DNA from: a marine gamma proteobacterium HTCC2148 | GTDB lineage: Bacteria > Pseudomonadota > Gammaproteobacteria > Pseudomonadales > Halieaceae | Length of the DNA: 64,000 nucleotides | Reading direction: 5' to 3' | NCBI GenBank assembly: GCA_000156295.1 | Contig: DS999238.1 | Span: forward strand, 4,931 to 68,930 | Shown: positions 45,337 to 63,006 of the stretch, piece after piece | How positions within the stretch are numbered: the stretch's first letter is position 1 | Layout: each line of letters opens with the position of its first letter | The notes under the pieces: model-generated | Told to the model about the DNA's origin: nothing | The model's database searches: none | Seen by the model: only the letters and a program-made list of their open reading frames with translations | Made by a program: the position numbers and the translations under genes

Positions 45337-45774
45337 TTACTTTTTCCAGGCCGGCAGGTCGCGCATCATTTTTATATCGTTGATCATCGCCAGCGCTTGC
45401 CACTCTTCGAGGGGAAAGTGAATGCCACCCTCCTCCTCTCCGTATTTGTCCTTCAGTTCTTTTTCTATTTTTTGATTAAAATCGAAGGCGCCAATTCCAC
45501 GCATGCCCCAGCCGCCAAACAGCCGCGCATCGATAATACTAAAAGCAACAATGCTTATTTCCGTGTGTCTTTCATCACGACAGATGCGCCGGAAAGTCGC
45601 ATTCACATCTTCGAAATTACCTTCAATCGCTTGCATAAAGTGGGTTCGGCTCGCTAACAGCACACCGGTCAAACCTACGCCCTCATTGTAAACCTCACTT
45701 TTGCTGGTGATGCTGCGCACGATCTCCCAGTTCAGAGGCTCAACACTTCGGCTTCTGTATATCATCCTGTACAT
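45337..45774 (-). CDS. BLUF-domain blue-light photoreceptor
   Basis: A 145-residue single-domain BLUF protein that binds FAD and senses blue light. The key residues are in place: Tyr6 in MYRMIYRS, Asn30 before the strand VGLTGVLL, and Gln48 in HFMQAIEG. The flexible beta-5 Trp/Met region appears as GGWGMRG. The C-terminal ~50 residues are helical. No output domain is fused, so it must act through a partner. Short BLUF proteins occur in aerobic marine gammaproteobacteria. It lies alone, 39 bases from the DJ-1-like gene on the same strand. Confidence 0.9.
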   Translation of the reverse strand: MYRMIYRSRSVEPLNWEIVRSITSKSEVYNEGVGLTGVLLASRTHFMQAIEGNFEDVNATFRRICRDERHTEISIVAFSIIDARLFGGWGMRGIGAFDFNQKIEKELKDKYGEEEGGIHFPLEEWQALAMINDIKMMRDLPAWKK

Positions 45775-46904: not shown

Positions 46905-47096
46905 ATGGTGGCATCTACTCAAAATACCGTATGGCGACGATTGCACCGCGACGATAGCGGGGAGCAAGCTATGGAAGTGTTAATGATTTTGACTTTCGGT
47001 GTACTCCCCATGATCGGTGCGGCGTGGTTGTTGGAAGATGTCATTCGCGAGTATGTTACGTTTGGGCAGATTTTTATCACTTCACCGTTTTTTTAA
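46905..47096 (+). CDS. small pilin-like protein (Flp candidate 1)
   Basis: A 63-residue protein. A short charged leader (1-19) is followed by a class III prepilin-type site: Gly19 then EQAME, with the conserved Glu at +5, and a hydrophobic stretch (about 25-43, VLMILTFGVLPMIGAAWLL). This fits a Flp-type prepilin cleaved by the prepilin peptidase encoded just downstream. The C-terminus (FGQIFITSPFF) is short and hydrophobic. It is not a close textbook Flp: the EY pair is EV here. The first in-frame ATG at 46905 is used. Confidence 0.65.
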   Translation: MVASTQNTVWRRLHRDDSGEQAMEVLMILTFGVLPMIGAAWLLEDVIREYVTFGQIFITSPFF

Positions 47097-47147
47097 AAAA
47101 ACCAGGTGGCCATTGAAGTCACTGATAATAAGGAATGGAGACATACT

Positions 47148-47348
47148 ATGAAGTTTATTCAACTCGCACATATCAAACTGATGCAATTGCATGTAGACAC
47201 GCGCGGAGACAATGAAAACCTGGGACGCCTGCTACTTCTGGCGCTAGTGCTTATCCCGCTGATTATCCTTATTTCTATCTTCGGACAAGAAATCTACACA
47301 GCAGCGCAAGGCAAATGGAATGAGGTAATGGGCGTAGAATTGGGCTAA
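47148..47348 (+). CDS. small single-helix protein (Flp candidate 2)
   Basis: A 66-residue protein with start at 47148 behind an AATGGAG ribosome site. A charged leader (1-27, ending DTRGDNENLGR) precedes one hydrophobic helix (about 28-46, LLLLALVLIPLIILISIFG) and an amphipathic tail. Gly20 could be a prepilin cleavage site, but Glu is at +3 instead of +5. It could be the major or minor pilin, or a small anchor of the machine. No homolog recognised by name. Confidence 0.6.
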   Translation: MKFIQLAHIKLMQLHVDTRGDNENLGRLLLLALVLIPLIILISIFGQEIYTAAQGKWNEVMGVELG

Positions 47349-47392
47349 ACAGTGCGCTAAACACAAAAAGGGCAACGGCATTACTCTTCGGC

Positions 47393-47929
47393 ATGTATAG
47401 CTACGCTACCGAAGCACAACTTTATCTGCTGCTGGCACTGCTGGTCCCGGCAACGGTGATGGATTTTACTCGCCATCGCATTCCCAATTACCTCACCTAC
47501 CCCGCGTTAGTGCTGGGCCTATGTCTGGCTGCGCTGAGCTGGGGCTGGACGGGGTTGGGCAATCACCTCATTGGCACTTTCGCCGCAGGAATCCCTCTGT
47601 TCCTAATCTTTCTCAGCGGCTCTTTGGGCGGCGGAGACGTCAAGCTAATGGCCGCAGTAGGTGCCATAGTCGGCTTCCCCAACGCACTCAATGCTCTGCT
47701 TGCCTCGATTATGGTTGGGGGTTTGTGCGCGGCGCTGATTCTAATCTGGCAGGGACGACTTTGGGGCTTGGTGCAGTATGCGTGTAGTACGCTAGGGTAT
47801 CGTGCAGGCATTCTTTCTCAGGCGCCGCAACCGCCACCGGCGCACCGGGACTCATTTCCCTTTGGCGTCGCCATAGCGATTGGCAGCTGCTTGATTGTTG
47901 TGCCGCCAACCCTGATGGGTAGCGGCTGA
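47393..47929 (+). CDS. prepilin peptidase, TadV/CpaA type
   Basis: A 178-residue inner-membrane aspartic protease (A24 family) that cleaves Flp and TadE/F-type prepilins. The catalytic Asp24 is in VMDFTRHRIPN and Asp82 in GGGDVKLMAAVG (GxGD). About six hydrophobic segments are present, with no N-terminal methylase domain, as usual for TadV/CpaA. It lies between the pilin-like genes and the TadE-like genes. Confidence 0.93.
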   Translation: MYSYATEAQLYLLLALLVPATVMDFTRHRIPNYLTYPALVLGLCLAALSWGWTGLGNHLIGTFAAGIPLFLIFLSGSLGGGDVKLMAAVGAIVGFPNALNALLASIMVGGLCAALILIWQGRLWGLVQYACSTLGYRAGILSQAPQPPPAHRDSFPFGVAIAIGSCLIVVPPTLMGSG

Positions 47930-47939
47930 GTATTCAGTC

Positions 47940-48854
47940 ATGGAAATGGGACTCGCCAACGGAGTGACCAGCGCCAGCATCCAAAATAACTTGGACCACT
48001 GGCTTCTTTACGGGCAGCTAAGCCTGGGGCTTGCAATATTATTATCCCTGATGCTAATGCTGCTACTACCGCTTCGCCGGGGCGCCTTCGACCGCCTGCG
48101 AGCATTCAGGCGCGATGAACAAGCCTCTGCCTCGCTTGAATTTTTGCTGGTTTTCTTTCCCCTGCTTGTGCTCGTGCTTGCAGTATGGCAACTGGCCTTT
48201 ATGGTAAACGCACAGGTTCACGTCGGTTACGCGGCCTACGCTGCCGCCCGCAGCGCCAGCACAGTGGCTTTCACGGAACTGGACAACGAGGCTGAGGGTG
48301 TACTGCTCAATCGCAACGAACCCGAAGCTGAGAAGTGGCAGCGCATAGAGCGCGCAGCGATTCCCGGCACCCTGGCCATTTCACCTGGCAGCGCAGAGTC
48401 GGCTGGCAAAGCGTATTTGTCCACTCAAGCCCATGGAATGCTGGGAGACGGCCCGGCGCCGAACTTTGACAGCATCGACTTCGGCAGCCTGCCCGGGCAA
48501 ATTGGCGCTCTCACCATTCACCGCCCCGGCATGATACTGAGCGGCTCGAGATTGCGCAGGGCCGCAGTGAAAGCCCTGTATGCGCAAGCCGCCACTCGTG
48601 TGTTAATTAACGGCAGAGATTCTCGCGGCAACCTGGCAGATGGCAACACCGCCAACGGTCCCTATGATCTCTCCTCCAGCGACACTTTAAGCGTTACAGT
48701 GGAGTATGATTTTTGGCTGCACGTGCCCTACGCTGGGCGCATGATGTATATAGCCTTTGGCGGCAGCGAACTAACCAGTGGCATTACTGAGCCTACGTTG
48801 ACCTTACGCAGCACCGTGGTGACGCCCACCTGGCCTCAGCTGGTGGCCTACTGA
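47940..48854 (+). CDS. TadE-like pseudopilin with extra N-terminal helix
   Basis: A 304-residue protein. It carries a TadE-type prepilin segment: Ala62 then SASLEF, with Glu67 at +5, leading into a hydrophobic helix (about 68-90, LLVFFPLLVLVLAVWQLAF). The following NAQVHVGYAAYAAARSAS is the typical TadE continuation. Unlike normal TadE it has a second hydrophobic helix upstream (about 24-45). Either the true start is internal or the protein is double-spanning before processing. The C-terminal part (about 110-304) is a periplasmic domain of unknown fold. Its last base overlaps the next start. Confidence 0.78.
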   Translation: MEMGLANGVTSASIQNNLDHWLLYGQLSLGLAILLSLMLMLLLPLRRGAFDRLRAFRRDEQASASLEFLLVFFPLLVLVLAVWQLAFMVNAQVHVGYAAYAAARSASTVAFTELDNEAEGVLLNRNEPEAEKWQRIERAAIPGTLAISPGSAESAGKAYLSTQAHGMLGDGPAPNFDSIDFGSLPGQIGALTIHRPGMILSGSRLRRAAVKALYAQAATRVLINGRDSRGNLADGNTANGPYDLSSSDTLSVTVEYDFWLHVPYAGRMMYIAFGGSELTSGITEPTLTLRSTVVTPTWPQLVAY

Positions 48855-50749
48855 TGGCTAATGCTCTCGACCGGCTGCATTACGACGACAGTGCCCAGGT
48901 ATCTTTCCTGGCGGTGGCTGCTGCGGTGTGCTTCGTGGCCTTATTGGCAATGGTGATGAACAGCAACGACATAGTGCGCGAGAGAATGCGTGTGCAAGAA
49001 GTTGCCGATGTAACAGCGCTCTCGGCCGCCACTTGGCAGGCTCGCGGCTTGAATATGATCTCCATGATCAATGTTCTCAACAGTAAAATCCTGAGCATGA
49101 CCGTGCTGGTTAACTCGCTCAACAAAACTCTGCCCATCGTAGTGACAGTTGCCGAAGTACAGGAAACTGCTTTTCAGGCCTGCAGCGCGGTGCCCTTTGT
49201 GGGGCCATTTTGCGCGGTGATGGCGACCATTGTGACCGTACAAAAAAACGTCATTAAAGTGATGGAAAGCGTTATAGAGAAAATCGCTACTATCACCGCC
49301 TGTAAAAAAGCTGCCTGGACGATTATGGAGGGCCTGCAGAGTGCAGCCGAAGGCGTTCGTCAAACCTTTCCCAGCATTGCAACCGTCAGTGCTGTAGCCA
49401 TCGCCAGTGAGAACGGAGCATCTTTTGGGGTGGCTTTGAACGGCGGACTCATCACCGGCTCACCCACAACCGCGCTGCAGCTACCAGTCACATCTGACGG
49501 CTACAAGACATCAGATTTTTGCTCCGCTATGAGTGACGGCGGCCCAGGCTATGTAATGGAGGGCTATGACAACAATCAGGGACCAGTGCGACTCGGTAAA
49601 AAAATTTGGGACATCGTCTTTATTCCCTTTTTCAATTTATTACCCCACCCTATTTTCTATGGTTTCTACAGTTTTTACATGGCGCAGTTGGGATGTACAC
49701 CCGACGCTCAATCGGAAGATAACAAATCTAAAACCCAATTTTACGACCTGCCGACCTGCCGCAAATACAACGCTAGCGCCACCTGGCGTTTATTTTTTTC
49801 ACGCACCGACTGGGTTACAGCGGGAGACTGGGATGCTGACGATTTCGTGGCCTGGACATCCCTCAATGACAACAGCTCAAGCGGCGGCCTCTCACAAGAG
49901 GAGCAGGACAAGTTTGGTGATCTCGGTCAGTATGGCGAAGACGTGCCAGCCGCTGAACCCCAACCCGTACTGTCTCGAGGGCCCGGCTATCAAGCACTGG
50001 TAACCGAGTCGCCTTTATTGAAAGTCAATGCCGCTTGCACGGAAGGTAATTCTGGCAGCGGTTACCCGCTGCTGAACGAAACGGGCACGAGCCAAATTTG
50101 CGGTTCAAGCTTTGGGCAGTGCCGTTGGCTAAACGGCCATCCCAAATTTACTCGTTACAGCGGGACCCACTCCCGCAATCCCAGCGGTCTGGACGCCGAG
50201 CGCACCGGAATTTATTTTCTGAGTGAAACCAGAGAAAGTGGCATCTTCATAGAAAACGACGAGGAAATTACCCGCTATCGCTACACCATTTACGTGTGGG
50301 CGCTTAGCAGCTCAGGCGAGAAAGTACTCGAGGGTGATGAACTTGAGGAGTATGTGCAGGACCAAACGAACGGCAGCGCCAGCACCGAAGCGAGCAACAG
50401 CAATGACAGCGCTGACTCCAAAAGCTGCCGCAATCGGATACAACCACTGTTAATCGACAAAGGTGACAACCCTGAGAACCGCATGCGCTACATTGCCATG
50501 GTCTATACCGACATACGCCCCCCATTTTGGAGCAATTTGTTCAACGAACCTCCCGCCCGAGTAACGGCCTATGCCCAGGCTCAGGTGTACAATAAATTAT
50601 CTGAAGACATGTTCACTCAGGACTGGCGAGCGCGTCTGGAACACTCGAACTTACTCGAGTCGGCACTGAGCAGCGACCAGGGGTTATCCCTACCGGGCAG
50701 CGAAGCCGGCATAGCCGAAGGAATTCTGGGCAGTGTTAACAATCACTAA
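48854..50749 (+). CDS. TadG-like pilus assembly protein
   Basis: A 631-residue protein. The N-terminal hydrophobic helix (about 17-38, SFLAVAAAVCFVALLAMV) and following NDIVRERMRVQEVADVTALSAATWQARGLN are in the style of TadG/TadE N-termini. The large outer region is Cys-containing (at least ten Cys, several in spaced pairs such as CSAVPFVGPFC) and has no recognised VWA motif. Low-complexity Ser/Asn near 515-530 (TNGSASTEASNSNDSAD). It probably forms the extracytoplasmic part of the machine. The function in Tad systems is not well defined. Confidence 0.7.
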   Translation: MANALDRLHYDDSAQVSFLAVAAAVCFVALLAMVMNSNDIVRERMRVQEVADVTALSAATWQARGLNMISMINVLNSKILSMTVLVNSLNKTLPIVVTVAEVQETAFQACSAVPFVGPFCAVMATIVTVQKNVIKVMESVIEKIATITACKKAAWTIMEGLQSAAEGVRQTFPSIATVSAVAIASENGASFGVALNGGLITGSPTTALQLPVTSDGYKTSDFCSAMSDGGPGYVMEGYDNNQGPVRLGKKIWDIVFIPFFNLLPHPIFYGFYSFYMAQLGCTPDAQSEDNKSKTQFYDLPTCRKYNASATWRLFFSRTDWVTAGDWDADDFVAWTSLNDNSSSGGLSQEEQDKFGDLGQYGEDVPAAEPQPVLSRGPGYQALVTESPLLKVNAACTEGNSGSGYPLLNETGTSQICGSSFGQCRWLNGHPKFTRYSGTHSRNPSGLDAERTGIYFLSETRESGIFIENDEEITRYRYTIYVWALSSSGEKVLEGDELEEYVQDQTNGSASTEASNSNDSADSKSCRNRIQPLLIDKGDNPENRMRYIAMVYTDIRPPFWSNLFNEPPARVTAYAQAQVYNKLSEDMFTQDWRARLEHSNLLESALSSDQGLSLPGSEAGIAEGILGSVNNH

Positions 50750-51353
50750 TATTGCGACAAGGCAGCGACAACGGGGCTCAGCCGCGCTGGAAACCCTGAT
50801 GTTATTTGTGTTTTTGATCGTACCGATCTGGATGCTGCTATTCACCATGGGCTACGCCGGCATCCGTCTTCAGGCTGCACAAGTTACCACTCGCCTGGCT
50901 GGCCATGAAGTGATGAAGAAAAAAACCAAAGGTGAAAATGTTCAGGGCGATGCACAGAGCCTGGCCAACCAGGTGGGCAGCCAGGTATTCCCAGCCGAGG
51001 AGAATGCCGTCTCTCTCAACGTCACCAATATTTCAGTGACCAGCGAAATCAGCTCCGGCAATGACGATTTAATGTCCTTTATGGGTGGGCTGATTTCCGG
51101 CCTGTCCGGCAGTTCCAGATTAGAGGTCTCGGTTTCCCGAAAAGCACCTTATGGGCTGTTTGAGGCCAGCGACATCACGGTACCCTTGACCATAGGTGGC
51201 ACCGCCTATACCTACTGTGAAATGAAAAATACCGATTTCGACCCTTTCGCCGGCGAGGGCATCAGCATAGGTATACTGGATAAGCTCACCAGTGGCAGCA
51301 ATATTTTGCTCGCACCGTTTGGCGGACTACCCACAGGCAGCAACAAATGTTAG
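50733..51353 (+). CDS. TadE/TadF-like pseudopilin
   Basis: A 206-residue protein with a textbook TadE/F prepilin site: Gly15 then SAALE, Glu20 at +5, and a hydrophobic helix (about 21-44). It continues with the family segment IRLQAAQVTTRLAGHEVM. The C-terminal domain is periplasmic. The GTG start overlaps the TadG-like stop by 17 bases, so translation is coupled. Confidence 0.8.
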   Translation: MLTITNIATRQRQRGSAALETLMLFVFLIVPIWMLLFTMGYAGIRLQAAQVTTRLAGHEVMKKKTKGENVQGDAQSLANQVGSQVFPAEENAVSLNVTNISVTSEISSGNDDLMSFMGGLISGLSGSSRLEVSVSRKAPYGLFEASDITVPLTIGGTAYTYCEMKNTDFDPFAGEGISIGILDKLTSGSNILLAPFGGLPTGSNKC

Positions 51354-52141
51354 CGCCCTTTTGGACCATTGCCATGAAGCTACTGAGCTCGGTGCTTATC
51401 ATCGTGCTGTTTTTCTACATCAGTAGCCAATTACCCTATTTCCAGCCAGACCGCCCCTTCACGATTGCGGGCCTGGCGCCGCAAACCGGTCACAGCAGCG
51501 CTGGCACCACGCTACCTTCGACGATGCTGATCACCGATGGTGATGCGCGCTTTACCGGCGACTTTTTCGACAGCGACAGCAACATCGGCTTCACCATGCG
51601 TGAAATAGATGTGTCAGGCCCCTGCGAGCGGGCTGGGGAGCGCTACATTCATGACACCTGCCCCCAGTGCAACGTAACCCCGGCAATCAGTGACAACAAT
51701 GAGCCTCCGACACTGTTTTGGATGCACCAGGAGGCCGAACAAGCAACCGTAGGAACAGTTTTTCGCGACTGTGCTGCCGATCTGGGCAACGGGCAAGTTC
51801 GCGTACCTTTGCTATCCTTTGATGGCAATGAAATCGATTTAACAGATTCCGAGAGTCACGTTAACACCAGTCAAATTCCCACCCTGGCCGGCAGTGTGCG
51901 CGAAAGCAATATGACTTTAGGCAACTGGGCAATTGCAGTTGATACCGTGACTCGTGGCGGGAGGGCAATGGATCAGATGGGGTTGCTATTAGGCGATGCC
52001 GGCTGGCGTGAGGTTCCCCAAGGAAACGAAAAACCCCAATTAGCACAAAGAGTTTACTCTCGTAATGATTCGCGTTTATGCGTGGTTACACTCAACCGGA
52101 TTGACGAGGCTTTTCAGCTCGTCACCATGATGAATATTTAG
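51347..52141 (+). CDS. unknown membrane-anchored Tad-operon protein
   Basis: A 264-residue protein I do not recognise. One N-terminal hydrophobic helix (about 10-29; MKLLSSVLIIVLFFYIS) anchors a periplasmic domain with a CERAGERYIHDTCPQC cysteine cluster and two further Cys (FRDCAAD, RLCVVT). The end RLCVVTLNRIDEAFQLVTMM may be a packing strand-helix. The start may be 51374 instead of 51347. It overlaps the previous gene by 7 bases and precedes cpaB, so it belongs to the apparatus. Confidence 0.6.
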   Translation: MLAPFWTIAMKLLSSVLIIVLFFYISSQLPYFQPDRPFTIAGLAPQTGHSSAGTTLPSTMLITDGDARFTGDFFDSDSNIGFTMREIDVSGPCERAGERYIHDTCPQCNVTPAISDNNEPPTLFWMHQEAEQATVGTVFRDCAADLGNGQVRVPLLSFDGNEIDLTDSESHVNTSQIPTLAGSVRESNMTLGNWAIAVDTVTRGGRAMDQMGLLLGDAGWREVPQGNEKPQLAQRVYSRNDSRLCVVTLNRIDEAFQLVTMMNI

Positions 52142-52157
52142 ATAAGCGAGGCAGGCC

Positions 52158-52946
52158 GTGAACAATAAAATTCTTTTGGTGATTGCTATAGTGGCGGGTT
52201 TAGGGGCGACATTCTTCGTCAAACAGCACATTGATGAAATGAAAGGCGACACGATAACAGTCTACAAAGCCACGAAAACCAAAGGCGTGGGCGACATACT
52301 GGGCGGTGATCTTGAGGCAATTACCCTGCCGGCCGGCCTGTTTCCAGACGCTTTGGAGGAGGCCCCTGATCAGAACTTTCTCGACTACATGCGCACAACA
52401 AGGTTGCGCGCAAAAGTGGCGATCGGCGATATTTTGCTTTTCCGCCACTTCGACTCCAGTATAGATCCCGGCGTACTCCCGAGCATTCCCGCCGGCAAAA
52501 AAGCTATTTCAGTCGGTGTGGACCAGAAAACCTCGGTGTCGTATTTTATTCAACCGGGCGATCTTGTCGACGTACTGGGCACATTTCCATCACTGGACCC
52601 CGGGGCTACATCCGCTGGCGATCTGCCGCGGATTGAAGCATCGACGCGACCAATTCTACAAGCTGTTGAAGTTCTGGCAGTGGGCAGCGAATACCGCGCA
52701 TCGGAACGTCATAATATGGAGCCCTATGGATCAGTAACACTGCTGGTAGACAGTGAGGAAGCGGCCAAGCTGATATTTGCCCAGGATTACTACGACGCCA
52801 ATATCACTCTACTGTTGCGTAGCAAGGATGACACCGACATCGCCTCACGACTGCCCGAGGTAGGCGTTCGGTCCGGCAATTTTGATTCCATCGGTAACCG
52901 CCCCAGTCACAATGTCATCATTAAAAAGCCGGAGGCTAAAAACTAG
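52158..52946 (+). CDS. cpaB: CpaB/RcpC-type Flp pilus assembly protein
   Basis: A 262-residue periplasmic protein with an N-terminal anchor (ILLVIAIVAGLGATFFV) and an SAF-like domain: GGDLEAITLPAGLFP, TTRLRAKVAIGDILLFRHF, then LPSIPAGKKAISVGVDQKTSVSYFIQPGDLVDVL, the CpaB core. CpaB normally works with the outer-membrane secretin CpaC/RcpA, which was not recognised in the window. GTG start; the next gene begins directly after the stop. Confidence 0.9.
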   Translation: MNNKILLVIAIVAGLGATFFVKQHIDEMKGDTITVYKATKTKGVGDILGGDLEAITLPAGLFPDALEEAPDQNFLDYMRTTRLRAKVAIGDILLFRHFDSSIDPGVLPSIPAGKKAISVGVDQKTSVSYFIQPGDLVDVLGTFPSLDPGATSAGDLPRIEASTRPILQAVEVLAVGSEYRASERHNMEPYGSVTLLVDSEEAAKLIFAQDYYDANITLLLRSKDDTDIASRLPEVGVRSGNFDSIGNRPSHNVIIKKPEAKN

Positions 52947-54797
52947 GTGTCTGTGCTGATTCACATTCGTGATTTGCAGGACCAGCGCATTGGAGAATTC
53001 CGGCTGGATCAGAGTCTGACTCTGGGCAAATCAACAGACTGCGATATTGTATTGGAGTCACCGTATATTTCCGCCGAACACGCACGCTTCGAAACCGAAG
53101 GCCCCCAGGTATATGTGCATTCCAAGGGCCTCAACGGCGTAATGGTAAATGACCAGGATGTCGCCCGCGGCCAGCGTATGGAGCTGCATTCCGAAGATAT
53201 CATTTCCTTGCCCGGATTCGTGCTGCACATAACGGGATTGCGGCCTACCAAACAAGCTAGCGACTTCGAAAAAGAGCGTGACCTTTCTGAACTCAAACGC
53301 ATCATCCATTTTGACTTACTGGAAAAAGCCAACCTCACCGGTGTGGTGATGGAGTCCAAAGACGCAGAAATGGCCAGCGAAATCGAAGTCAAACTTACCG
53401 AACTGCTGGAACGCGTGCACAGCATCGATGATGAACTGCTAGAACATATTGTATTAAGGTCCACCCGAGAAGAAGCAGTTAACACAGTGGTACGAGGCCG
53501 CCTCAAGGATAGCAGCCGCGGCTCCCTTGATTGGGAAAACAGCGCCGATCGCATTGCCTTCGACCAGTTGGTCTCTACCTGTTTGGCTGACATCGGCATC
53601 GACGAGAGTTATGACAATTTACGCATTGCCGATGTGCGCGACAAGTTCAACGAAGTGTTTGCTCGCAACTCTCAAGCCCTATCCCCCGGACAAAAACAGT
53701 ACATTGCCAAAGGTTCTATTCGCTCCGATATCCTTTCGCTGGTTTACGGCCTGGGACCGCTGGAAGACCTCATGAAGCTGCCAGACATCACCGAGATTAT
53801 GGTTGTGGGCAAGGATAAAATATTCATTGAAAAGGGTGGCGGCCTGGAGGAAACCGGCCGCGCCTTTCCCAGCGAAGACGACCTGAACGTAGCGGTGAAT
53901 CGGATGGTTCGCCCCATTGGCCGCGCGCTTAACCGGGCCGACCCCATTGTCGATGCCCGCCTTGAAGACGGCTCGCGCGTGCACATTGTAATTCCACCAG
54001 TGGCTATTCACGGCACCTCGGTTACCATCAGGCGCTTCCGTGAAGAACCCTTCACCCTGGCGGATCTGATCGGCTTTGGTTCGATGACACCGCAGGCTGG
54101 CCGCTTTCTCGCCGCCTGCATCGTAGCACGCAAGAACATGGTGATATCCGGGGGAACCGGCTCAGGTAAAACCACACTGCTGAATGTGCTCGGGTCTCAA
54201 ATCCCTTTCGATCAGCGCCTGGTAGTGATCGAGGACAGCGCTGAACTGCAACTGCCACAACCTAACCAGGTCAATCTTGAAACCCGCAAAGCAAATCTCG
54301 AAGGTAAAGGTGAAATCCCCATTAAAGCTTTGGTTCGTGCTTCTCTGCGCATGCGGCCCGACCGAATAGTCGTGGGTGAGTGCCGCAGCGGCGAGGCACT
54401 GGACATGCTCCAGGCCATGAACACTGGACACGACGGCTCGCTGACCACCGGCCACGCTAACTCTCCGCGGGAAATGATTCAGCGGCTGCAAGTGATGGTG
54501 ATGGAAGCCGGTGAAGACATGCCAATAACCGCTATCCGCCAACAGATTGCCGCCGCCGTCGACATCATCGTACAGATACAGCGGCAGCGAGATCGCTCAC
54601 GAAAGATTACCCACATCAGTGAAATTGTCGGCTACGATGTCACCGAGGGTGAAATCGTAATGGAGGATATCTTCAAACTTGTGAGTCTGCCCGAAGGCGG
54701 CTCGGAGCTGCGCTTCACTGGCTACCTGCCGAGCTTTGCCGACAGCTTGTTGGATAGCAGCGACCTGTCGCTGGAGGAATTATTCGCATGGGATTGA
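52947..54797 (+). CDS. FHA-CpaF fusion, Tad secretion ATPase
   Basis: A 616-residue protein joining two families. Residues about 1-100 are a forkhead-associated domain ([26 protein letters not shown], then [13 protein letters not shown]) that binds phosphothreonine. Residues about 120-600 are a CpaF/TadA hexameric ATPase: the all-helical N-domain, [12 protein letters not shown] (about 399-410), the Walker B region [23 protein letters not shown] and the His box [11 protein letters not shown]. Normal CpaF has no FHA. With a kinase and second FHA protein downstream, phospho-control of pilus extension or secretion is a reasonable inference. The start is GTG, and the stop overlaps the tadB start by 10 bases. 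Confidence 0.92.
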
Positions 54798-55639
54798 TCA
54801 TTGCCTACGCACTTATTGCCGTCTCTGTCACCGCATTGGTGTACGCAGGTTTACAAAGCTTCGTGCCGGTGGCTGTAACGCGCTGGCGCAGCGACCAAGA
54901 AGAAATCGACGACAAGCTGCAAAACATTTTCTACACCAGTAGCGAAGCACGCACCTTTTTGATCCTTAAGTATGGGGGCACCCTGGCCGCTTTTTTCATC
55001 GGCTTGTGGTTCATGAATAGTCTCGTATTCGGCATATTCCTTGGCATTGTCATCTACTTGCTTCCGGAAGTACTACTGGACAATATCCTGCGCCGTCGCC
55101 GTGAACGCCTGGAGGCGCAAACAGCCGACGTGATGACCGCTCTTAGCGCCAGTATCAAAAGCGGTATGACCATCGAGCAAGCCTTTTCTGAAATGGTTGA
55201 TAACATGTACCCGCCGATATCTGAAGAATTTGCACTGATTCGCGAACGCATAGACGCCGGACAACCGGTGATAGCAGCCGTTAAATCTGCCGATGAACGG
55301 CTGCAGGTGCCGCGGCTGTCACTGATATTCCAGACTATTTGCATCTCGCTGGAACGCGGCGGCCGCCTGGCATCGCTAATGGACCGCTTAGCGGAGTCGA
55401 CTCGTGAAATAGAGCGGGTCGAAGAGCGGGTGCGCACTGAAACCGCCGGTCTGCGTTTATCGGCGCGAATCATGTTTCTCATGCCCTTCTTCATTTGCGG
55501 CTTGCTTTATTTGATCGAGCCTGACCAAGTCATGCTGTTATTCGACAATTTGGTTGGCAATATCGTTCTGGTTATTGCGATCGCTATGGACATCAGCGCG
55601 TACTTCATAATGAAAAAGCTTATTGAGCTGGACATTTAA
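54788..55639 (+). CDS. tadB: TadB-type inner-membrane platform protein
   Basis: A 283-residue T2SSF-domain protein. Transmembrane helices lie near 3-22, 60-95, 222-242 and 255-275. The cytoplasmic T2SSF region has SASIKSGMTIEQAFSEMV, a GQPVIAAVKSADE loop and ISLERGGRLASLMDRLAESTREIERVEERV. It forms the rotating platform with TadC over the CpaF ATPase. Confidence 0.92.
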   Translation: MGLIIAYALIAVSVTALVYAGLQSFVPVAVTRWRSDQEEIDDKLQNIFYTSSEARTFLILKYGGTLAAFFIGLWFMNSLVFGIFLGIVIYLLPEVLLDNILRRRRERLEAQTADVMTALSASIKSGMTIEQAFSEMVDNMYPPISEEFALIRERIDAGQPVIAAVKSADERLQVPRLSLIFQTICISLERGGRLASLMDRLAESTREIERVEERVRTETAGLRLSARIMFLMPFFICGLLYLIEPDQVMLLFDNLVGNIVLVIAIAMDISAYFIMKKLIELDI

Positions 55640-55644
55640 TTATT

Positions 55645-56535
55645 ATGAATCAGACACTGCTTATTGCTCAGGTTGCCGCTTTCATTGCCACCAGCTGCAC
55701 AGTACTTTTTATAGGTTTCAGTATCCGCGATGCCCTCAAGCGCAGAGAGCAATTATGGATCAAAATACGCGCCTCACATGTCAGCAAGGCGGAAGCCGGT
55801 GCCGAATTCGTGCGCACGGTTTTACTGGAGACAGTTCGGCCAATGTCCTCTGTACAAAAACTTCTTCGGCAAACACAGAAGAACCTGCTGCGCGCTGGCG
55901 TTGGCCGCAATGCCGAAGACTATGTCGCTGACGGACTATGGCAGGGTTTGTTAGGTGGCATTAGCATCATGCTGGCCGTTAGTCTGCTGTCGTCGCCAGT
56001 TTCAGGATTACTCCTTGGCACAGCGGGCGGGGTGCTATGGGCAATGTGGATTAAACCCTCCATGCTCGACAGCAACGCCACACAGCGCAGCCGGCTGATT
56101 TATCGTCGCATTCCTTACGCCCTCGATTTATCGGTCCTGGTATTAGAAACTGGTGGCACGCTGCGAGAAGGCCTGGAAGAAATTTCATTACAGAATGACC
56201 CTCTGGCGGAAGAGTTGCGCATCACTCTGCTGGAAATGGATTCAGGTTCCACCCAGGCCGCGGCGCTGCGTGGCATGGGCCAGCGAGTTGGCTTAGAGTC
56301 ACTTGAAACTATTCTCACAGCGATTAATCGAGGCGAGGAAACCGGTGCACCAATGGTTGCCACTCTGATAACTCAGGCGGAAATGTTTCGCGAACGGAGG
56401 CTGCAGGAGATCGAGAAAATGGCAGTGGAAGCACCTACAAAAATGACTTTTCCCAATATGATGATCATGGTGTCAGTGCTGTTGCTGATCATTGGCCCCC
56501 TTCTAATTCAACTCGTTTCTTCAGGACTCTTCTAG
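55645..56535 (+). CDS. tadC: TadC-type inner-membrane platform protein
   Basis: A 296-residue T2SSF-domain protein and partner of TadB. It has an N-terminal helix (about 3-25), a middle helix pair (about 97-135), the T2SSF core (IPYALDLSVLVLETGGTLREGLEEISLQ; LETILTAINRGEETGAPM) and a C-terminal helix (MIMVSVLLLIIGPLLIQLV). It follows tadB by 5 bases. Confidence 0.92.
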   Translation: MNQTLLIAQVAAFIATSCTVLFIGFSIRDALKRREQLWIKIRASHVSKAEAGAEFVRTVLLETVRPMSSVQKLLRQTQKNLLRAGVGRNAEDYVADGLWQGLLGGISIMLAVSLLSSPVSGLLLGTAGGVLWAMWIKPSMLDSNATQRSRLIYRRIPYALDLSVLVLETGGTLREGLEEISLQNDPLAEELRITLLEMDSGSTQAAALRGMGQRVGLESLETILTAINRGEETGAPMVATLITQAEMFRERRLQEIEKMAVEAPTKMTFPNMMIMVSVLLLIIGPLLIQLVSSGLF

Positions 56536-56536
56536 G

Positions 56537-57271
56537 ATGCAAGCACTGCAGATACGTTTTACTCAGGGCCCCATGCAGGGGACTACCAAACAATATGACC
56601 TAGGCTACTTACTAATCGGTCGCGAACCACGTCCGGAGGTGGACCAGCAGGCGCTGATCCTCACGGGCGCCGACGGCTCGGTGTCGCGAAACCATGTTGC
56701 ACTCTTTGATCGCGACGGCCAGGTGATACTGCAAAACATCAGCGGCAACGGAACGCGAGTAGACGGCACTCTGATTATAGAGGAAGCGGTGCTCAAGCCC
56801 GGTGCCCAGATCACCATAGGCAGCCACCACCAACTGGAAGTAAAGTGGCAATTGGTTGGCCGGCAAAAGCAAGAGGACAAAGACGCGAAAGCGCCAGCCG
56901 CAACGAAAGCGGCCTCCTCGGGCTTACTGGCATCACCCGTTGTGCGTGCGCTCCTGGCAGTGTACCTGGTCGCCATTATCGGTGTTGCCGCCTACCTCAG
57001 CTGGCAAGGAGGCCGTAACGCGGGTATTCCCGACGACTGGCCGCAGTTGAGCGCCGCTTACGAGGCCTACCAGCCCACCGAAATCAGTGCCGCAGAAAAG
57101 ACTCGGCGGGCGAACTTGGCGGAGGCACTTTTAGTGCGCCTGCGGGTATTGCGCGCCAACGAGAGAACATACGAAGTAAAACGCTTGTGCCGCGTGCTCA
57201 TGCGTTTGGATGCAGATATTCAATCACCGATTTATCGCTACGGGGCCACGTGCCTGGGATCGATCAACTAA
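56537..57271 (+). CDS. membrane FHA-domain protein
   Basis: A 244-residue protein. An N-terminal FHA domain (about 5-105) has the phosphothreonine-binding pattern: GREPRPEVD, GSVSRNHVALF and NISGNGTRV. A charged linker and one transmembrane helix (about 137-155) follow, then a periplasmic helical tail (about 160-244) with two Cys. The cytoplasmic FHA could read the mark placed by the kinase encoded next, and the tail could contact the Tad machine. It starts one base after tadC. Confidence 0.88.
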   Translation: MQALQIRFTQGPMQGTTKQYDLGYLLIGREPRPEVDQQALILTGADGSVSRNHVALFDRDGQVILQNISGNGTRVDGTLIIEEAVLKPGAQITIGSHHQLEVKWQLVGRQKQEDKDAKAPAATKAASSGLLASPVVRALLAVYLVAIIGVAAYLSWQGGRNAGIPDDWPQLSAAYEAYQPTEISAAEKTRRANLAEALLVRLRVLRANERTYEVKRLCRVLMRLDADIQSPIYRYGATCLGSIN

Positions 57272-57281
57272 CGAGTTAACA

Positions 57282-59066
57282 ATGGCTAACGAGCGCTACG
57301 AGAATAAAACCTATGTCGGCTCAGGTGGCATGGCGACCGTATACCGCGCCTGGGACAGCGTGGTAGGGCGCGATGTCGCCCTAAAAGAAATCGCCGAAGA
57401 ATTGCGTCAGGACCCGGAGGTTCGCGACATGTTCATGCGCGAGGCTCGAAAAATGGCCAAGGTCAGACACCGCAACGTGGTGCAGGTTTACGACGTACTG
57501 CTCGAAAATGAAGCGGCAACCCTGGTGCAGGAGTACATGGATGGAGGCAGCCTCGCGAACCGCGTGGGAGCCTCGACCATGTCACCAGATGAAACATTAA
57601 AAATGCTACAGGACGTATGCTGCGGCTTGCAGGCCATACACGACGCCGGCCTCATTCACCGTGACGTAAAGCCCGACAACATTCTCGCCCACCAGGGTGA
57701 ATGGAAAGTGGCAGACTTCGGTGTAGCGATGAGCGGCGATGAAGACGTACTGCCCTTCGTCGGCAGCAAGTACGCTGCGCCGGAAGTATTGAATGCTCCG
57801 GATACGATCTCCGTGCGTTCAGACATCTACTCTGTTGGGGTGATGGCCACTGAGTTGATTTTGGGTTCTCAGCAGTACGAAAAGAGCGCTCGCGAGGCAA
57901 TGTTGATTCAGCTCGGTGAAGGCGCTGCGCCGACACGCGATAGCACGGCCACATTTTGGCAGCGCTGGGTGTCCAGCAATGTCGTCATGCCACTGCTGTG
58001 TGAACTGAATCCGGTCATATCTCGAGAAATTAGCGAGTTCATCGCCAACCTGACTGCTCGCGATCCCGAACAGCGACCGGCTGACTGCACCAAAGTTATC
58101 GCTGAAATTAACGCCCTGCGCGAAGCCGAAGCTATGCGGCTGGGTGCTCCCACCGCCCGCGATCCCAGAGTCAAGGCGCGCAAAGCAGAGAGTGGAGCGG
58201 ATGGCGACGAGAAAAACAGAAAACCACTGTGGTTCAAACTGACCATGGGCGTTAGCGTACTCTTGCTCACCGCTGTGGGGGCCTTATTATTGCTGCCCTC
58301 AAAGCCCAAGGTCTACAACATCGAACTTCTCAGTACACCAGCCGATGCCGCCTTTAGCATTAACGGCGCAGCGCAAAAGGCCGTCACGCCCACCACCGCT
58401 GAGATTAAAATTGGTGATATTCTCAGCTTTAGCAAAACCGGCTATCAGCCGGTGGAGTTAACGGTGGCCAAGGGTCTTTCACAACTTACCTCTAAAACCG
58501 ACGGTCAACTGCAGATCAAGGCGGAGTTGGAACGCAGTTTCTACCTCGGCGATAGCGCTAGCGCGATGAAATTTCTCAGCGAGAAGTGGGCCGAGGTTCC
58601 ACATTTTCGAGCCACCATTCCCACGGCTACGCTAAACAATGGCAGCTACACACTGCCAATCGATACCCCTTTGCACATCGCTATCAACCCGCCTATGGAA
58701 GGAGCCATCACTTTTATCCACCTGAGTTCCGATAATTTTGCCACCTTGGTATACCCTAATCCAGCTGGCGCCACACTGGGGGTATTGGCCGACACTAATA
58801 TCACCGTAGGTGATGAATTAGACATGGCTGCGTCGGAACCTCTGGGCCAAGAGTGGATTGTGCTGGTGCTAACTCGAAAACCACTCATGCCCCCAAAAAT
58901 AGAGGGCTCCGGCCTGGTAGAGGACTGGGCCCGCTACCACGAGTTTGGCGAAATGGCCTCTCCCGGCGAGCAATTAATAATGTGGCTCACCGAGGCAGCG
59001 GGAACCCCGCTGGCGGTCGAAATAGTAACGGTAAACATCGTACCCAAGGGTGACACCGCACCATGA
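57282..59066 (+). CDS. transmembrane Ser/Thr protein kinase with PEGA/DUF4384-like outer part
   Basis: A 594-residue Hanks-type kinase. The start at 57282 is set by MANERYENK; an upstream in-frame start adds unrelated residues. It has the glycine loop GSGGMATVY (13-21), Lys35, catalytic HRDVKPDN (Asp128) and DFG (145-147), with APE at 166-168. All catalytic residues are present. A transmembrane helix (about 317-338) leads to a PEGA-like domain (about 345-395; STPADAAFSINGAAQKAVTP) and a DUF4384-like beta domain (about 460-575; DTPLHIAINPP, ATLVYPNP). DUF4384 is often paired with caspases, and one is encoded nearby. It probably phosphorylates ligands of the two FHA proteins in this operon. It overlaps the next start by 4 bases. 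Confidence 0.93.
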   Translation: MANERYENKTYVGSGGMATVYRAWDSVVGRDVALKEIAEELRQDPEVRDMFMREARKMAKVRHRNVVQVYDVLLENEAATLVQEYMDGGSLANRVGASTMSPDETLKMLQDVCCGLQAIHDAGLIHRDVKPDNILAHQGEWKVADFGVAMSGDEDVLPFVGSKYAAPEVLNAPDTISVRSDIYSVGVMATELILGSQQYEKSAREAMLIQLGEGAAPTRDSTATFWQRWVSSNVVMPLLCELNPVISREISEFIANLTARDPEQRPADCTKVIAEINALREAEAMRLGAPTARDPRVKARKAESGADGDEKNRKPLWFKLTMGVSVLLLTAVGALLLLPSKPKVYNIELLSTPADAAFSINGAAQKAVTPTTAEIKIGDILSFSKTGYQPVELTVAKGLSQLTSKTDGQLQIKAELERSFYLGDSASAMKFLSEKWAEVPHFRATIPTATLNNGSYTLPIDTPLHIAINPPMEGAITFIHLSSDNFATLVYPNPAGATLGVLADTNITVGDELDMAASEPLGQEWIVLVLTRKPLMPPKIEGSGLVEDWARYHEFGEMASPGEQLIMWLTEAAGTPLAVEIVTVNIVPKGDTAP

Positions 59067-60100
59067 ATACGATATCGGAAGGAGTATTCAATGCCGCCTT
59101 GGGCTATTTTTTAGCGCCCATTAGCGAGCTTATGGCAGACGAATCCGTGCGCGAGGTGATGATCAATGGCTACGACCAGATTTTCATCGAACAAAATGGT
59201 GAACTTAAACTCAGTGATTACCGCTTCACCGATGCGGAGCAATTGATGGCCGCGGTACGTAATATCGCCCAGTACGTGGGTGTGCACTTGCACGATGAAG
59301 TGTCACGTTTCGACGCCCGCCTACCCGCCGGACACCGAGTACACGTTGTGTTGCCCCCGGTTTCACGGGCGGGCATATCAGTGACCATACGCAAGCACAG
59401 TAAAAGCAGCTTTGGTCTCAGCGATCTGGTGAAGCTGGGTTCCATTTCCGAGGAGTCCACCGAATTTTTGCGCCGGGCCATGGAACGCGAGCAGAACATG
59501 GTAATTTCTGGTGGAACCGGCACCGGTAAAACGACCTTTATTAATGCGCTATCGGCGCTGATACCCAACAGCGACCGTATCGTCACTATTGAAGACGCGG
59601 CTGAACTGCAGCTCGATCAAGAGCATGTGGTTTCGCTTGAAACCCGCGCGCCCGACCGCAAGGGCAAAGGAGCAGTGAGCATTCGTGACCTGCTGCACTC
59701 CTCCCTCCGCATGCGGCCCGATCGCATCATTGTAGGTGAGTGTCGCGGCGGCGAAGCCCTCGATTTGTTACAAGCAATGAACACCGGCCACGGCGGCTCT
59801 ATGTCCACTGTGCACGCCAATTCCCCGGTGGAGTCTTTGCGTCGACTGGAAACGCTTGCGCTGTTTTCCGGAGAAGAAATTCCACTGCGTTTTTTGCGCG
59901 CCCAGGTGGCTTCGGCTATTAATATCGTGGTCCAACTGCAACGGTTGGCGGGCAAACGCACGGTGGCCACCATCGCCGAGGTTCTACCGTTGAGCGAAGA
60001 CGGAGAGTACCGGGTACAAGATATTTACCAGTTCGACTACAACAGCGAGCAACTCACCCGTTGTGCTCAAGCTAACTTCGAAACCGTCGCCGGCCACTGA
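59063..60100 (+). CDS. second CpaF/TadA-type secretion ATPase
   Basis: A 345-residue ATPase without the FHA and with a shortened N-domain. It shows GGTGTGKTTFIN (about 149-160), the [23 protein letters not shown] region and the His box STVHANSPVESL, so it is predicted active. A Tad operon usually has one ATPase; the second may drive the reverse movement or a different substrate. Its start overlaps the kinase stop and its stop overlaps the methyltransferase start, consistent with one polycistron. Confidence 0.93.
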   Translation: MNTISEGVFNAALGYFLAPISELMADESVREVMINGYDQIFIEQNGELKLSDYRFTDAEQLMAAVRNIAQYVGVHLHDEVSRFDARLPAGHRVHVVLPPVSRAGISVTIRKHSKSSFGLSDLVKLGSISEESTEFLRRAMEREQNMVISGGTGTGKTTFINALSALIPNSDRIVTIEDAAELQLDQEHVVSLETRAPDRKGKGAVSIRDLLHSSLRMRPDRIIVGECRGGEALDLLQAMNTGHGGSMSTVHANSPVESLRRLETLALFSGEEIPLRFLRAQVASAINIVVQLQRLAGKRTVATIAEVLPLSEDGEYRVQDIYQFDYNSEQLTRCAQANFETVAGH

Positions 60101-60807
60101 TGCTGTGGTTACTTGTGGCAGTAGCAACGATCGCCGGTGTCTGGGCAATTTACCCCGGTGAGCTCAGCTGGCTGCCGTGTAAGGGCAACCGCTGGCTGTA
60201 TAATCGGGCCGCAGCGGGCTACCACCAAAAATGGCAGCGGCACGATTACCGCGCCTACGATGCGCTTATTCTCGAGGCCGCCACTGTATTGGGACACAAC
60301 GATAGCCCCGCCAGGATAGCTGACCTGGCTTGCGGCAGTGGCCGCGCCACACTGGTAGCCGCCTCCCGGTTAGGCATCAAAGCACACTATTTGGCAGTAG
60401 ACTTTTCTGCCGCTATGTTGGCTCAATTCAAACAGCAGATTGCCAACGACAGCACCTACCAAGCTTGCGATATCACCTTGCAACAGCAAGACCTACACAC
60501 TTGGCTCAGCATGCAAAATGAAAGGTTTGATTTACTGTTATTCATGGAGGCAGCAGAGTTTATTGCCGACAACCGCTCTTTGCTTGCAAAGCTGGGCGCA
60601 ATCGCCGCGCCCGGTAGCGAACTGATTATGACGCGCCCAGCGAGTTACTGGGGCTTCCTGTTTCCCGGCCGGCACCAAAGCAGGGCAGCCATGCACCGAG
60701 CGCTGCAAACAGCGGGCTTTGAAGCAGTGGAGTTTCTCCCCTGGCGGGCGCGCTACGAGTTGGTGCGCGCCAAACGATCAGCTATTCCTGAAGCTGCCAG
60801 CCCATAG
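60100..60807 (+). CDS. membrane-anchored SAM-dependent methyltransferase
   Basis: A 235-residue class I methyltransferase with one N-terminal hydrophobic helix (about 2-17, LWLLVAVATIAGVWAI). SAM motif I is IADLACGSGRATL, followed by HYLAVDFSAAML, the acidic loop FDLLLFMEAAEF and a C-terminal GFEAVEFLPW. The substrate is unknown: lipid, small molecule or a component of the apparatus. It overlaps the CpaF stop by one base. Its 3' end overlaps the convergent gene by 26 bases. Confidence 0.85.
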   Translation: MLWLLVAVATIAGVWAIYPGELSWLPCKGNRWLYNRAAAGYHQKWQRHDYRAYDALILEAATVLGHNDSPARIADLACGSGRATLVAASRLGIKAHYLAVDFSAAMLAQFKQQIANDSTYQACDITLQQQDLHTWLSMQNERFDLLLFMEAAEFIADNRSLLAKLGAIAAPGSELIMTRPASYWGFLFPGRHQSRAAMHRALQTAGFEAVEFLPWRARYELVRAKRSAIPEAASP

Positions 60808-61918
60808 GAATATCGTACCGCTGCGCAGGAATGGGATCGTTGTCCCATTCGGTGATCTCGGTGACAATACGAAACACGGTAACTGGCCCATTGGCTGACT
60901 TTTTCTTCTTGGTTGCTGTTTTTTTCTTCTTGCTAAACAAACCGCCGATGATCTCGCCCGTCGCCGCGCCTATCGCCGAACCACCAATGGAGCCGCCTAT
61001 ACTGTCCCCCATGGCCTCGCTGGTGGCATCACTAATCGCACTGTTAGCCTCACTGCCGGTGGCGCCAACGGCAGCGCTAGAGGCACTGTCTGCGGCATTG
61101 CCCCACATATTATCTTCCTCAGCTGCCTCCCCTTCCCCATTGAAGCAGGCACGGCCACCAATTTTCATGGTCATCATCGTGCGCATGGGGTAGCCCTTAA
61201 AAGCCTCTAATTCATCAAGCAGGCTTTCCCAACGGTTAGGAAAAAGCGCTAATAGCATTTGGCTGGCACCGGACATCTGGGGAATGAGATAGTCCATACC
61301 CAGATAGTCGGCAAAATCGGCATAATAACCGCTCACTTCTTCATAGCCGGGCAGCTTGTTTGCTAGCCAAGGCTCCATAATCCACTGCATATCACACGAC
61401 TGGCCACTGATTTCATCGGTGCAGGACTGGCTCATAGTGAAAATATGGCGCGTAGCCCGCTTGCCGGCAATGCGCTCTTTCTCTTTGGTTTCCTTGGCTT
61501 TGAAACGCGCCTCCGACCACTCGCAGTTTTCCGTCGCCACCGGTAACACCTGACCACCAGCCTCAGCGTTTAGCTGACTTCGCAGGCCGGCGAGTTCATC
61601 CGCCAGGGCCTCGAGCGTAAATTGGCTATAGCTTTGCATATCGGGTTTGAGTATGTAGCCCATTTCCTGGTCGAGCCGGATGAGCCGCACATCTGCGACC
61701 GACAGGTCGGCGGCCATGTCATCGGAGGGAATCACTTCAGTGCGGCTGCGATCGGAGGATACCTGGGTTTTAACGCGGGTTTCCGCGCTTAAACTGGCCA
61801 CCGGCCCGGAGGCCCGCACTGATATCGAGCGCTCGAAACTCACGTCAGCAACTGCCACCAACGGCACTATTGAGCAGATTAGAACCGCTGCTCGTAAACA
61901 CGATGACCGACTCTGCAT
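60782..61918 (-). CDS. secreted glycine-zipper protein of unknown family
   Basis: A 378-residue protein with a signal peptide (CLRAAVLICSIVPLVAVAD). The start at 61918 is preferred because a GGGG ribosome-like site lies 8 bases before it; the alternative is a TTG at 61930. The middle part (about 30-240) has a pair of Cys segments and resembles DUF4412-type periplasmic proteins only loosely. From about 290 a glycine-zipper helix (IGGSIGGSAIGAATGEIIGGLF) precedes a lysine run (SKKKKTATKKKKSANG). Such zippers insert in or span membranes. It is the last gene of the block with the caspase and TolB-like genes. Confidence 0.65.
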   Translation of the reverse strand: MQSRSSCLRAAVLICSIVPLVAVADVSFERSISVRASGPVASLSAETRVKTQVSSDRSRTEVIPSDDMAADLSVADVRLIRLDQEMGYILKPDMQSYSQFTLEALADELAGLRSQLNAEAGGQVLPVATENCEWSEARFKAKETKEKERIAGKRATRHIFTMSQSCTDEISGQSCDMQWIMEPWLANKLPGYEEVSGYYADFADYLGMDYLIPQMSGASQMLLALFPNRWESLLDELEAFKGYPMRTMMTMKIGGRACFNGEGEAAEEDNMWGNAADSASSAAVGATGSEANSAISDATSEAMGDSIGGSIGGSAIGAATGEIIGGLFSKKKKTATKKKKSANGPVTVFRIVTEITEWDNDPIPAQRYDIPMGWQLQE

Positions 61919-61945
61919 AACTGACCCCAACCGTTCTACCGGCTA

Positions 61946-62974: not shown

Positions 62975-63006
62975 CAAAGCTGTCTCCTTATAAAACTAAG
63001 TCAGCG

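Follow-up and report, generated by a model that had tools for sequence, protein, structure and literature searches.

A secretin-free Tad-like locus with two CpaF-type ATPases, FHA proteins and a Ser/Thr kinase in the marine gammaproteobacterium HTCC2148 and in members of two phyla

Introduction

The canonical Tad/Flp systems of Caulobacter and Aggregatibacter comprise CpaF, TadB and TadC, CpaB, an A24 peptidase and TadE-like pseudopilins, as well as a secretin, TadZ and, in Caulobacter, a single bifunctional motor (PMC12019362, PMC6668835). The co-option of a secretin is described as the founding event of Tad (PMC6668835). Fusions of an FHA domain to CpaF are also on record, in class III CpaF (PMC12019362) and in KilF (PMC8460266). 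Here, we describe a Tad-like locus of the marine gammaproteobacterium HTCC2148 (contig DS999238.1), found at positions 46905 to 60807 of a stretch of 64,000 nucleotides that will be hereafter referred to as the window. The locus has two CpaF-type ATPases, one of them fused to an FHA domain, a membrane FHA protein and a transmembrane Ser/Thr kinase, and no secretin. To our knowledge, the kinase and the membrane-anchored FHA protein are not among the canonical Tad parts.

The closest described system is Kil of Myxococcus, known from Myxococcus xanthus and Bdellovibrio. Its ATPase, KilF, has an N-terminal FHA domain and is accompanied by several further FHA proteins; the authors propose a signalling cascade, with reference to that of the type VI secretion system (T6SS) (PMC8460266). 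In the main text, from which the word 'kinase' is absent, Kil is described as having one ATPase only, KilC as a short secretin, and genes divided between two clusters (PMC8460266). The tested precedent is the T6SS itself, in which PpkA phosphorylates TssL, Fha binds it and type VI secretion starts (PMC3953482).

Results

The locus is a real operon, and its kinase is no stray addition to an ordinary Tad locus. Fifteen colinear, tightly packed genes run without interruption over about 14 kb of the plus strand (open reading frame (ORF) calls and Pfam), and the spacing at 12 of the 14 junctions ranges from -17 to +10 bases, the remaining two measuring +44 and +16. A preliminary description, made from the sequence alone, had proposed one co-directional run of Tad, FHA, kinase, second CpaF and methyltransferase genes with mostly overlapping or close junctions, and the ORFs, Pfam, NCBIfam and the measured distances bear this out. 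The run ends where it had been said to end, but the conserved block continues from 60782 beyond the window end, with three convergent genes and an OmpA-DUF4384 gene outside the window that are conserved in both other gammaproteobacterial members.

The type IVc (T4c) features of Tad found here are two CpaF/TadA-type ATPases, separate TadB and TadC proteins, CpaB/RcpC, an A24 peptidase and a TadE-like pseudopilin. FHA-CpaF, CpaB, TadB and TadC stand in the same order as in class III CpaF Tad loci (PMC12019362). Class III and ordinary gammaproteobacterial loci differ in having a secretin between CpaB and CpaF and a kinase almost never, and no CpaF2 was found in them. Like Kil, the window locus is Tad-like and carries FHA on an ATPase plus a further FHA protein; unlike Kil, it has two ATPases, no secretin at the locus, and one operon that includes a kinase. 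It resembles the PpkA-Fha pair in joining a membrane-linked Ser/Thr kinase and an FHA protein at an envelope machine (PMC3953482), the kinase having its catalytic residues and the FHA domain its phosphothreonine residues. The machine is a different one, with no T6SS core gene among the 20 window proteins scanned with Pfam. Because the FHA-CpaF fusion is already known, what is new here is the second CpaF, together with the lack of a secretin and the presence of the kinase. The earlier suggestion of an undescribed kinase/FHA-regulated Tad variant is supported by the lineage and by co-inheritance of the kinase, and needs adjustment in that FHA fused to CpaF is not new. Searches of open-access PMC articles aimed at the gene set gave no description of it.

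In a tree of 87 ATPase cores, made by a quick method without bootstrap, CpaF2 forms one clade of 24 rows (Shimodaira-Hasegawa-like approximate likelihood ratio test (SH-aLRT) 100) and the FHA-CpaFs of the system form their own clade of 26 rows (SH-aLRT 85). The two ATPases agree in their branching, e.g. L283-(L285-(L291, L292)), and the same branching is seen for these groups in the kinase tree, where L289 stands apart. Kinase and FHA-CpaF distances correlate (r 0.948 for all 22 loci, 0.942 after thinning to 17; permutation p 0.0005), a correlation that comes partly from shared species history. The kinase and CpaF2 are co-inherited with the Tad core. The tree separation, CpaF2 and the absence of a secretin set the locus apart from an ordinary class III Tad locus, a reading that was rejected on these grounds. 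The CpaF of L294 falls outside the system clade, in the canonical group. Two control loci of one gammaproteobacterial family, L121 and L122, encode 364-residue CpaF-like ATPases that form a long branch near the CpaF2 end of the tree; they have no TadB/TadC matches nearby and may not be Tad.

Loci and genomes are cited here by L and G numbers; L249/L259 is the second gammaproteobacterial metagenome-assembled genome (MAG; JANSYN010000007.1), G005 a congener (L252) and G787 a Rhodospirillaceae MAG. Besides the window, the lineage includes two gammaproteobacterial MAGs, Rhizobium and Chthonobacter, the Rhodospirillaceae MAG and Planctomycetota. The gene order, whose conservation in other Halieaceae and Spongiibacteraceae had been put forward as a check, is not conserved across the family of HTCC2148 and is conserved elsewhere. 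The operon is patchy: among 57 relatives searched, only G005, one of seven congeners, has a close FHA-CpaF. Same-family genomes include G011 and G036, with ordinary FHA-CpaF Tad loci. Seven further FHA-CpaF matches above 300 bits, in seven genomes (47-52% identity), look like ordinary Tad loci, as do those fetched in a class-wide search of 369 genomes.

A CpaF2 query over 398 Pseudomonadota led to loci of G787 and G809 with the same order and a divergent CpaF2. TadG gave no match on GTDB contigs as a single-protein query, and 42 loci as an alignment: Rhizobium, Chthonobacter, G787, Planctomycetota/Phycisphaerae, G005, L249, a short Granulosicoccaceae contig and six probably ordinary loci (L245-L248, L250, L254), which were set aside, having no CpaF2 in the stretch and a CpaB-CpaF gap of 645-1391 bases. 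L249 is colinear with the window from the pilins through FHA-TM (the transmembrane FHA protein), the kinase (649 bits), CpaF2 (83% identity) and the methyltransferase, and continues with the convergent 382-residue, PD40, caspase and OmpA genes. In G005, one contig holds the pilins to FHA-CpaF and another holds CpaF2, the methyltransferase, the 382-residue, PD40 and caspase genes and an OmpA fragment; G005 is neutral on the kinase, because the stretch from TadB to the kinase falls between its two contigs. A CpaF2 profile run over 246 Planctomycetota genomes revealed further paired loci. Twenty stretches were fetched, 11 with both ATPases (L282-L292), three with FHA-CpaF only (L294, L298, L300) and six with CpaF2 only (L293, L295-L297, L299, L301). 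A threshold of 440 bits separated CpaF2 from other CpaFs in both Proteobacteria samples (240 alpha- and 229 gammaproteobacterial genomes); since only G787 and the window's own genome exceed it, the system is rare in these samples. The TadG gene is also present in 89 plasmid records (88 Rhizobium, 1 Neorhizobium).

Gene content was judged at 22 loci: the window, L249/L259, L243, L262/L263, L253, L264/L265 (two contigs of one genome) and L282-L292, the rest being those of R. johnstonii 3841, R. lusitanum, two Chthonobacter and G787. The flanks of the other Rhizobium loci of the TadG search end too early for inclusion, and contig ends truncate L242, L252 and L298. The 76 control CpaF/Tad loci are the best-scoring fetched matches, not a random sample, and contain no canonical Planctomycetota Tad loci.

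No secretin was found in the run or on its contig. One of 36 system stretches (27 loci) contains a secretin, versus 71 of the 76 control loci, and TadZ gave only three weak matches (24-31 bits) in these 36 stretches versus 29 of the 76. TadZ/CpaE is not at the window locus, where CpaB and FHA-CpaF touch and leave no room between them; two class III loci inspected by gene also lack TadZ at this place. The CpaB-CpaF gap measures -62 to 165 bases in system loci where ORF starts are reliable, except L243, and 1312-3474 bases in 14 ordinary loci. This space is filled by a secretin-type ORF of 381-441 residues in two of three class III loci, and an antisense ORF was called there in the third.

A kinase-fold gene is present at all 22 judged loci, in the run or within about 10 kb, degenerate in some, and a second FHA protein, FHA-TM, at 19. 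The two are therefore not sporadic neighbours absent from orthologous loci, an outcome that would have spoken against the preliminary description. Kinases occur in 3 of the 76 control loci (one edge fragment and two ORFs of a single domain, each some 17.7 kb into its stretch), and random 20-kb stretches from 19 genomes with 2-59 Pfam kinases give a chance expectation of about 1.05 of 19 loci; a chance neighbour was rejected on these grounds. An add-on of the window's lineage is ruled out by the other members, which carry kinases a few kb further or in other slots. The kinase gene follows FHA-TM in the gammaproteobacteria, L289 and G787, lies between TadE and TadG in most Planctomycetota, and is otherwise found near CpaF2 or, in Rhizobiales, convergent downstream. 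The kinase profile was trained on most of the kinases that it then finds; single-kinase phmmer searches and RefSeq annotation in Rhizobium are independent of it.

The catalytic Lys, HxD Asp and DFG Asp are kept in both gammaproteobacterial kinases and in 13 of 16 Planctomycetota kinases (system loci plus L300), and are lost in L290, L291/L292, all four Rhizobiales kinases examined and G787. L300, with a kinase and no CpaF2 in the stretch, is one of 15 competent kinases and stands outside the 22 loci. The G787 protein (L179, 10103-13237), located after FHA-TM, is a very degenerate pseudokinase of 1045 residues with HGGLVPEAV for HRDxKPxN; its fold was detected only by the profile built in this analysis, and the genome has no Pfam kinase. 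A WxxW/I-H-like element of the C-lobe (WQRWV in the window) is common to most system kinases, is not found at this place in seven background kinases, and is missing from L289 and one Chthonobacter kinase. The window kinase (57282-59066) has no threonine from DFG to APE (DFGVAMSGDEDVLPFVGSKYAAPE), which is unusual for activation by phosphorylation of a loop threonine.

The FHA residues were read by eye; L238 was checked separately, and L213 and L234 were excluded, the kinase not being seen. FHA-CpaF keeps its Arg/Lys and His in 15 of 15 loci with a competent kinase and has lost one or both in 8 of 8 with a degenerate kinase (Fisher p 2e-6, related loci being counted as independent). FHA-TM has the Arg in the window, keeps Arg and His in Rhizobiales, and loses the Arg in G787. 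Just before the transmembrane helix, 12 of the 15 competent kinases have the motif T[AV]x[L/I/D]P, for which shuffling predicts 0.21; it reads APTARDP in the window, APTALDP in L259 and PTAALP or similar in Planctomycetota. It is absent from all four pseudokinases tested, and those of R. johnstonii and R. lusitanum lack PTA. The motif could plausibly serve for FHA docking. The residue at +3 is commonly, but not invariably, what FHA domains recognise (Asp or Ile in the case of Rad53-FHA1), a rule against which the source cautions (PMC4037201).

Table 1 Genes of the locus and its convergent neighbours in the window.
Feature	Position	Strand	Basis and homologues
Pilin-like protein 1	46905..47096	+	Prepilin-type SG/EQAMEVLM by eye; same-place homologues in L252 (G005), L249
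Pilin-like protein 2	47106..47348	+	RG/DNENLGRL; homologues L042, L249; similar ORFs in Rhizobium
A24 prepilin peptidase	47393..47929	+	Pfam PF01478 8.6e-20
TadE-like pseudopilin	47940..48854	+	Pfam PF07811 7.6e-07
TadG-like large pseudopilin, 631 residues	48854..50749	+	Homologues in gammaproteobacterial, Rhizobiales and Planctomycetota loci
TadF-like pseudopilin, 206 residues	50733..51353	+	Position and N-terminal prepilin-like segment; homologues L042, L249; no Pfam match
264-residue protein, one transmembrane helix and predicted periplasmic part	51347..52141	+	No family; homologues L042, L249
CpaB/RcpC	52158..52946	+	Pfam 1.1e-21; NCBIfam TIGR03177 over cut-off
FHA-CpaF, N-terminal FHA and CpaF/TadA ATPase	52947..54797	+	Pfam FHA 3.2e-14, T2SSE 1.9e-53; own clade
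TadB inner-membrane platform	54788..55639	+	Pfam T2SSF 6.3e-17
TadC inner-membrane platform	55645..56535	+	Pfam T2SSF 7e-11
FHA-TM protein	56537..57271	+	Pfam FHA 7.6e-10; cytoplasmic FHA (GR, SxxH, N kept)
Transmembrane Ser/Thr kinase, Hanks-type	57282..59066 (ORF from 57210)	+	Pfam 3.2e-48; K, HRD, DFG kept
CpaF2, second short CpaF-like ATPase	59063..60100	+	Pfam T2SSE 2.9e-57; clade of 24, SH-aLRT 100
Class I methyltransferase-like, N-terminal membrane segment	60100..60807	+	Pfam 8e-14
382-residue exported protein, convergent	60782..61930	-	Same-place orthologues in L259 (373 bits), G005 (422 bits)
PD40 beta-propeller lipoprotein-like	61946..62977	-	Pfam 6.5e-32; orthologues in L259 (488 bits), G005 (554 bits)
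Propeller-caspase (Peptidase_C14), 811 residues, C-terminal part	63007..63990	-	Pfam; orthologues in L259 (984 bits), G005 (1236 bits)

Flp-type pilins have Glu at +5 of the mature protein. By eye, ORF 46905 has this residue and ORF 47106, for which 47148 is the likelier start, does not; neither has a Pfam match. The TadG-like protein has no Pfam match and a weak NCBIfam match, to TIGR03816, whose 21.5 bits fall short of the 50.95-bit cut-off, and its assignment otherwise comes from position and a Rhizobium homologue annotated 'Tad domain-containing'. An AlphaFold2 model of the 264-residue protein has a predicted local distance difference test score (pLDDT) of 58.9 and no PDB match with E < 0.001; in alpha loci the slot holds an ORF merely 13-17% identical. 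FHA-TM, by eye, has a cytoplasmic FHA domain, one transmembrane helix and a small C-terminal domain. Read from 57210, the kinase ORF shares 62 bases with the FHA gene; the more probable start is 57282, where the alignment with the L249 homologue begins. The C-terminal part of its orthologue in L259 has PEGA and a weak DUF4384 match. The methyltransferase after CpaF2 is kept in L259 and G005 and was not seen adjoining the loci of other lineages. Several pilins and pseudopilins (window 46905-51353, L180) have a segment L-H-x-D-x-x-(G/A) before their hydrophobic start (LHRDDSG, LHYDDSA; LHRDERG in Rhizobium), which may be a leader motif that they have in common.

The 811-residue caspase protein runs past the window end, and the OmpA-DUF4384 gene is next to it. 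All three gammaproteobacterial members and all four Rhizobiales loci examined have caspase-fold and DUF4384-OmpA genes next to the locus; neither kind was found in the Planctomycetota or G787 stretches examined (caspase at E 1e-4), and none of the 76 control loci has a caspase. In Rhizobium, a serpin and a trypsin-caspase-DUF4384 protein are present as well. One stretch of pRL11 of R. johnstonii 3841 (L271, 630898-648140 of the record), near the Tad-like locus, contains a pseudokinase, a serpin, trypsin-caspase-DUF4384, caspase and DUF4384-OmpA proteins and later another caspase protein; this bacterial cluster includes a protease together with its inhibitor. An 88-bit homologue of the 382-residue protein lies near an ordinary gammaproteobacterial Tad locus (L123, 16737-17894), in a stretch where no caspase was found. 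Nine of the 76 ordinary loci (L093, L096, L097, L100, L103, L139, L140, L142, L049) have a second FHA ORF of 376-669 residues downstream of TadC, recalling Kil, and L049 and L142 are also near a single-domain kinase-like ORF. Upstream of the run, on the opposite strand, lies a gene for a BLUF blue-light sensor (window 45337-45774).

Discussion

The gene set suggests a pilus machine, or perhaps one for secretion, that is switched by a kinase. With slightly better than even confidence, we regard the locus as a kinase-gated, FHA-read, two-motor member of a distinct Tad-like type IV filament lineage. The gene content, orthology and co-inheritance, the lack of a secretin, the residue states and the motif are computational results, and from them phosphorylation, docking, the roles of the two motors and the extruded material are inferred. 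The C-terminal part of the kinase may sense an envelope signal, upon which the kinase would phosphorylate a threonine either of a neighbour or of its own juxtamembrane linker (APTARDP in the window). CpaF and FHA-TM would bind the phosphothreonine through their FHA domains, and this binding could dock the motor at the TadB/TadC platform, or release it, and so gate filament extension. CpaF2 may be an unregulated counter-motor, for retraction, or the motor of a second step. A more detailed version is possible and rather doubtful: a secretin-free two-motor Tad shared by Planctomycetota and Proteobacteria, whose receptor kinase autophosphorylates T-A-x-[L/D]-P and recruits FHA-CpaF for extension, with CpaF2 retracting, coupled in gammaproteobacteria and Rhizobiales to caspase-fold proteases, and with the switch fixed as a pseudokinase in rhizobia.

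Several observations weigh against a kinase-gated machine. The link between kinase and FHA residues reduces to three independent changes (sign test p 0.25, with the FHA state entered from the by-eye reading, not computed). The Arg/Lys and His are kept in 38 of 51 FHA-CpaFs of other Tad loci, where kinases are nearly absent, so that an intact FHA domain is no proof of a local kinase partner. Of the 15 'intact' FHA-CpaFs, 7 have Ala or Asn in place of the Ser of SxxH, and the FHA-CpaF of the window carries Lys instead of the usual Arg. The motif is missing from 3 of the 15 competent kinases, and its pattern was noticed first and tested afterwards. FHA-TM was not found at L282, L288 (contig end) and L290; the kinase varies in its position within the operon, and that of L289 lacks the family element and branches apart. 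The model of the window kinase has a pLDDT of 56.7, with an ectodomain that is unusable (below 50) and gives no lead on its role. Finally, L285 is a Planctomycetota system locus with a secretin (2-1738, 180 bits) upstream of CpaB, and L243 has a gap of 1115 bases with a 343-residue ORF between CpaB and CpaF.

The residue states also bear on the idea that the machine is as described and that kinase fold and FHA proteins form an assembly scaffold holding CpaF at the membrane, with catalysis secondary or lost. Pseudokinases are indeed kept in all four Rhizobiales examined, as is a very degenerate one in the Rhodospirillaceae MAG, and the Rhizobiales FHA-TM retains Arg and His though FHA-CpaF has lost them. 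We consider a scaffold unlikely, given the catalytic residues of both gammaproteobacterial and most Planctomycetota kinases and the FHA-CpaF phosphate residues, which go where catalysis goes. The locus could instead deliver or release effectors as a kinase-triggered death or killing device, with the caspase-like and trypsin-caspase proteins as executioners and the serpin as a brake. The caspase-fold genes beside the gammaproteobacterial and Rhizobiales loci, their absence from the control loci and the Rhizobium additions are in its favour, and the related Kil kills prey on contact (PMC8460266); yet the Planctomycetota and Rhodospirillaceae stretches examined have no caspase, and no toxin or immunity gene was recognised, which leaves such a device improbable.

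The absence of a secretin would be explained differently if this were an ordinary class III Tad/T4c adhesion pilus that borrows its secretin from elsewhere, with the kinase as a genomic hitch-hiker. The core Tad genes are present and the genome of HTCC2148 has three secretins. All three are on other contigs, however, and two of them have a large T2SSE ATPase nearby, at less than 1 kb and at about 8 kb (C31, C17), in a PilQ/GspD-like arrangement; both secretins of the one-contig Rhodospirillaceae genome lie inside two other Tad loci. Moreover, CpaF2 and the kinase co-inherit with the core, and we judge this account decidedly improbable.

If the kinase-gated, two-motor reading is correct, the two-phylum lineage would be a natural system that separates extension from retraction, versus the single bifunctional motor of Caulobacter (PMC12019362), and would place a type IV filament motor under phospho-control. 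It would also bear on how Tad entered diderm bacteria, given the co-option of a secretin as its described founding event (PMC6668835). The recurrent cluster of caspase, serpin and DUF4384-OmpA genes gains a place. Members on Rhizobium megaplasmids, including pRL11 of the sequenced strain 3841, make the system directly testable.

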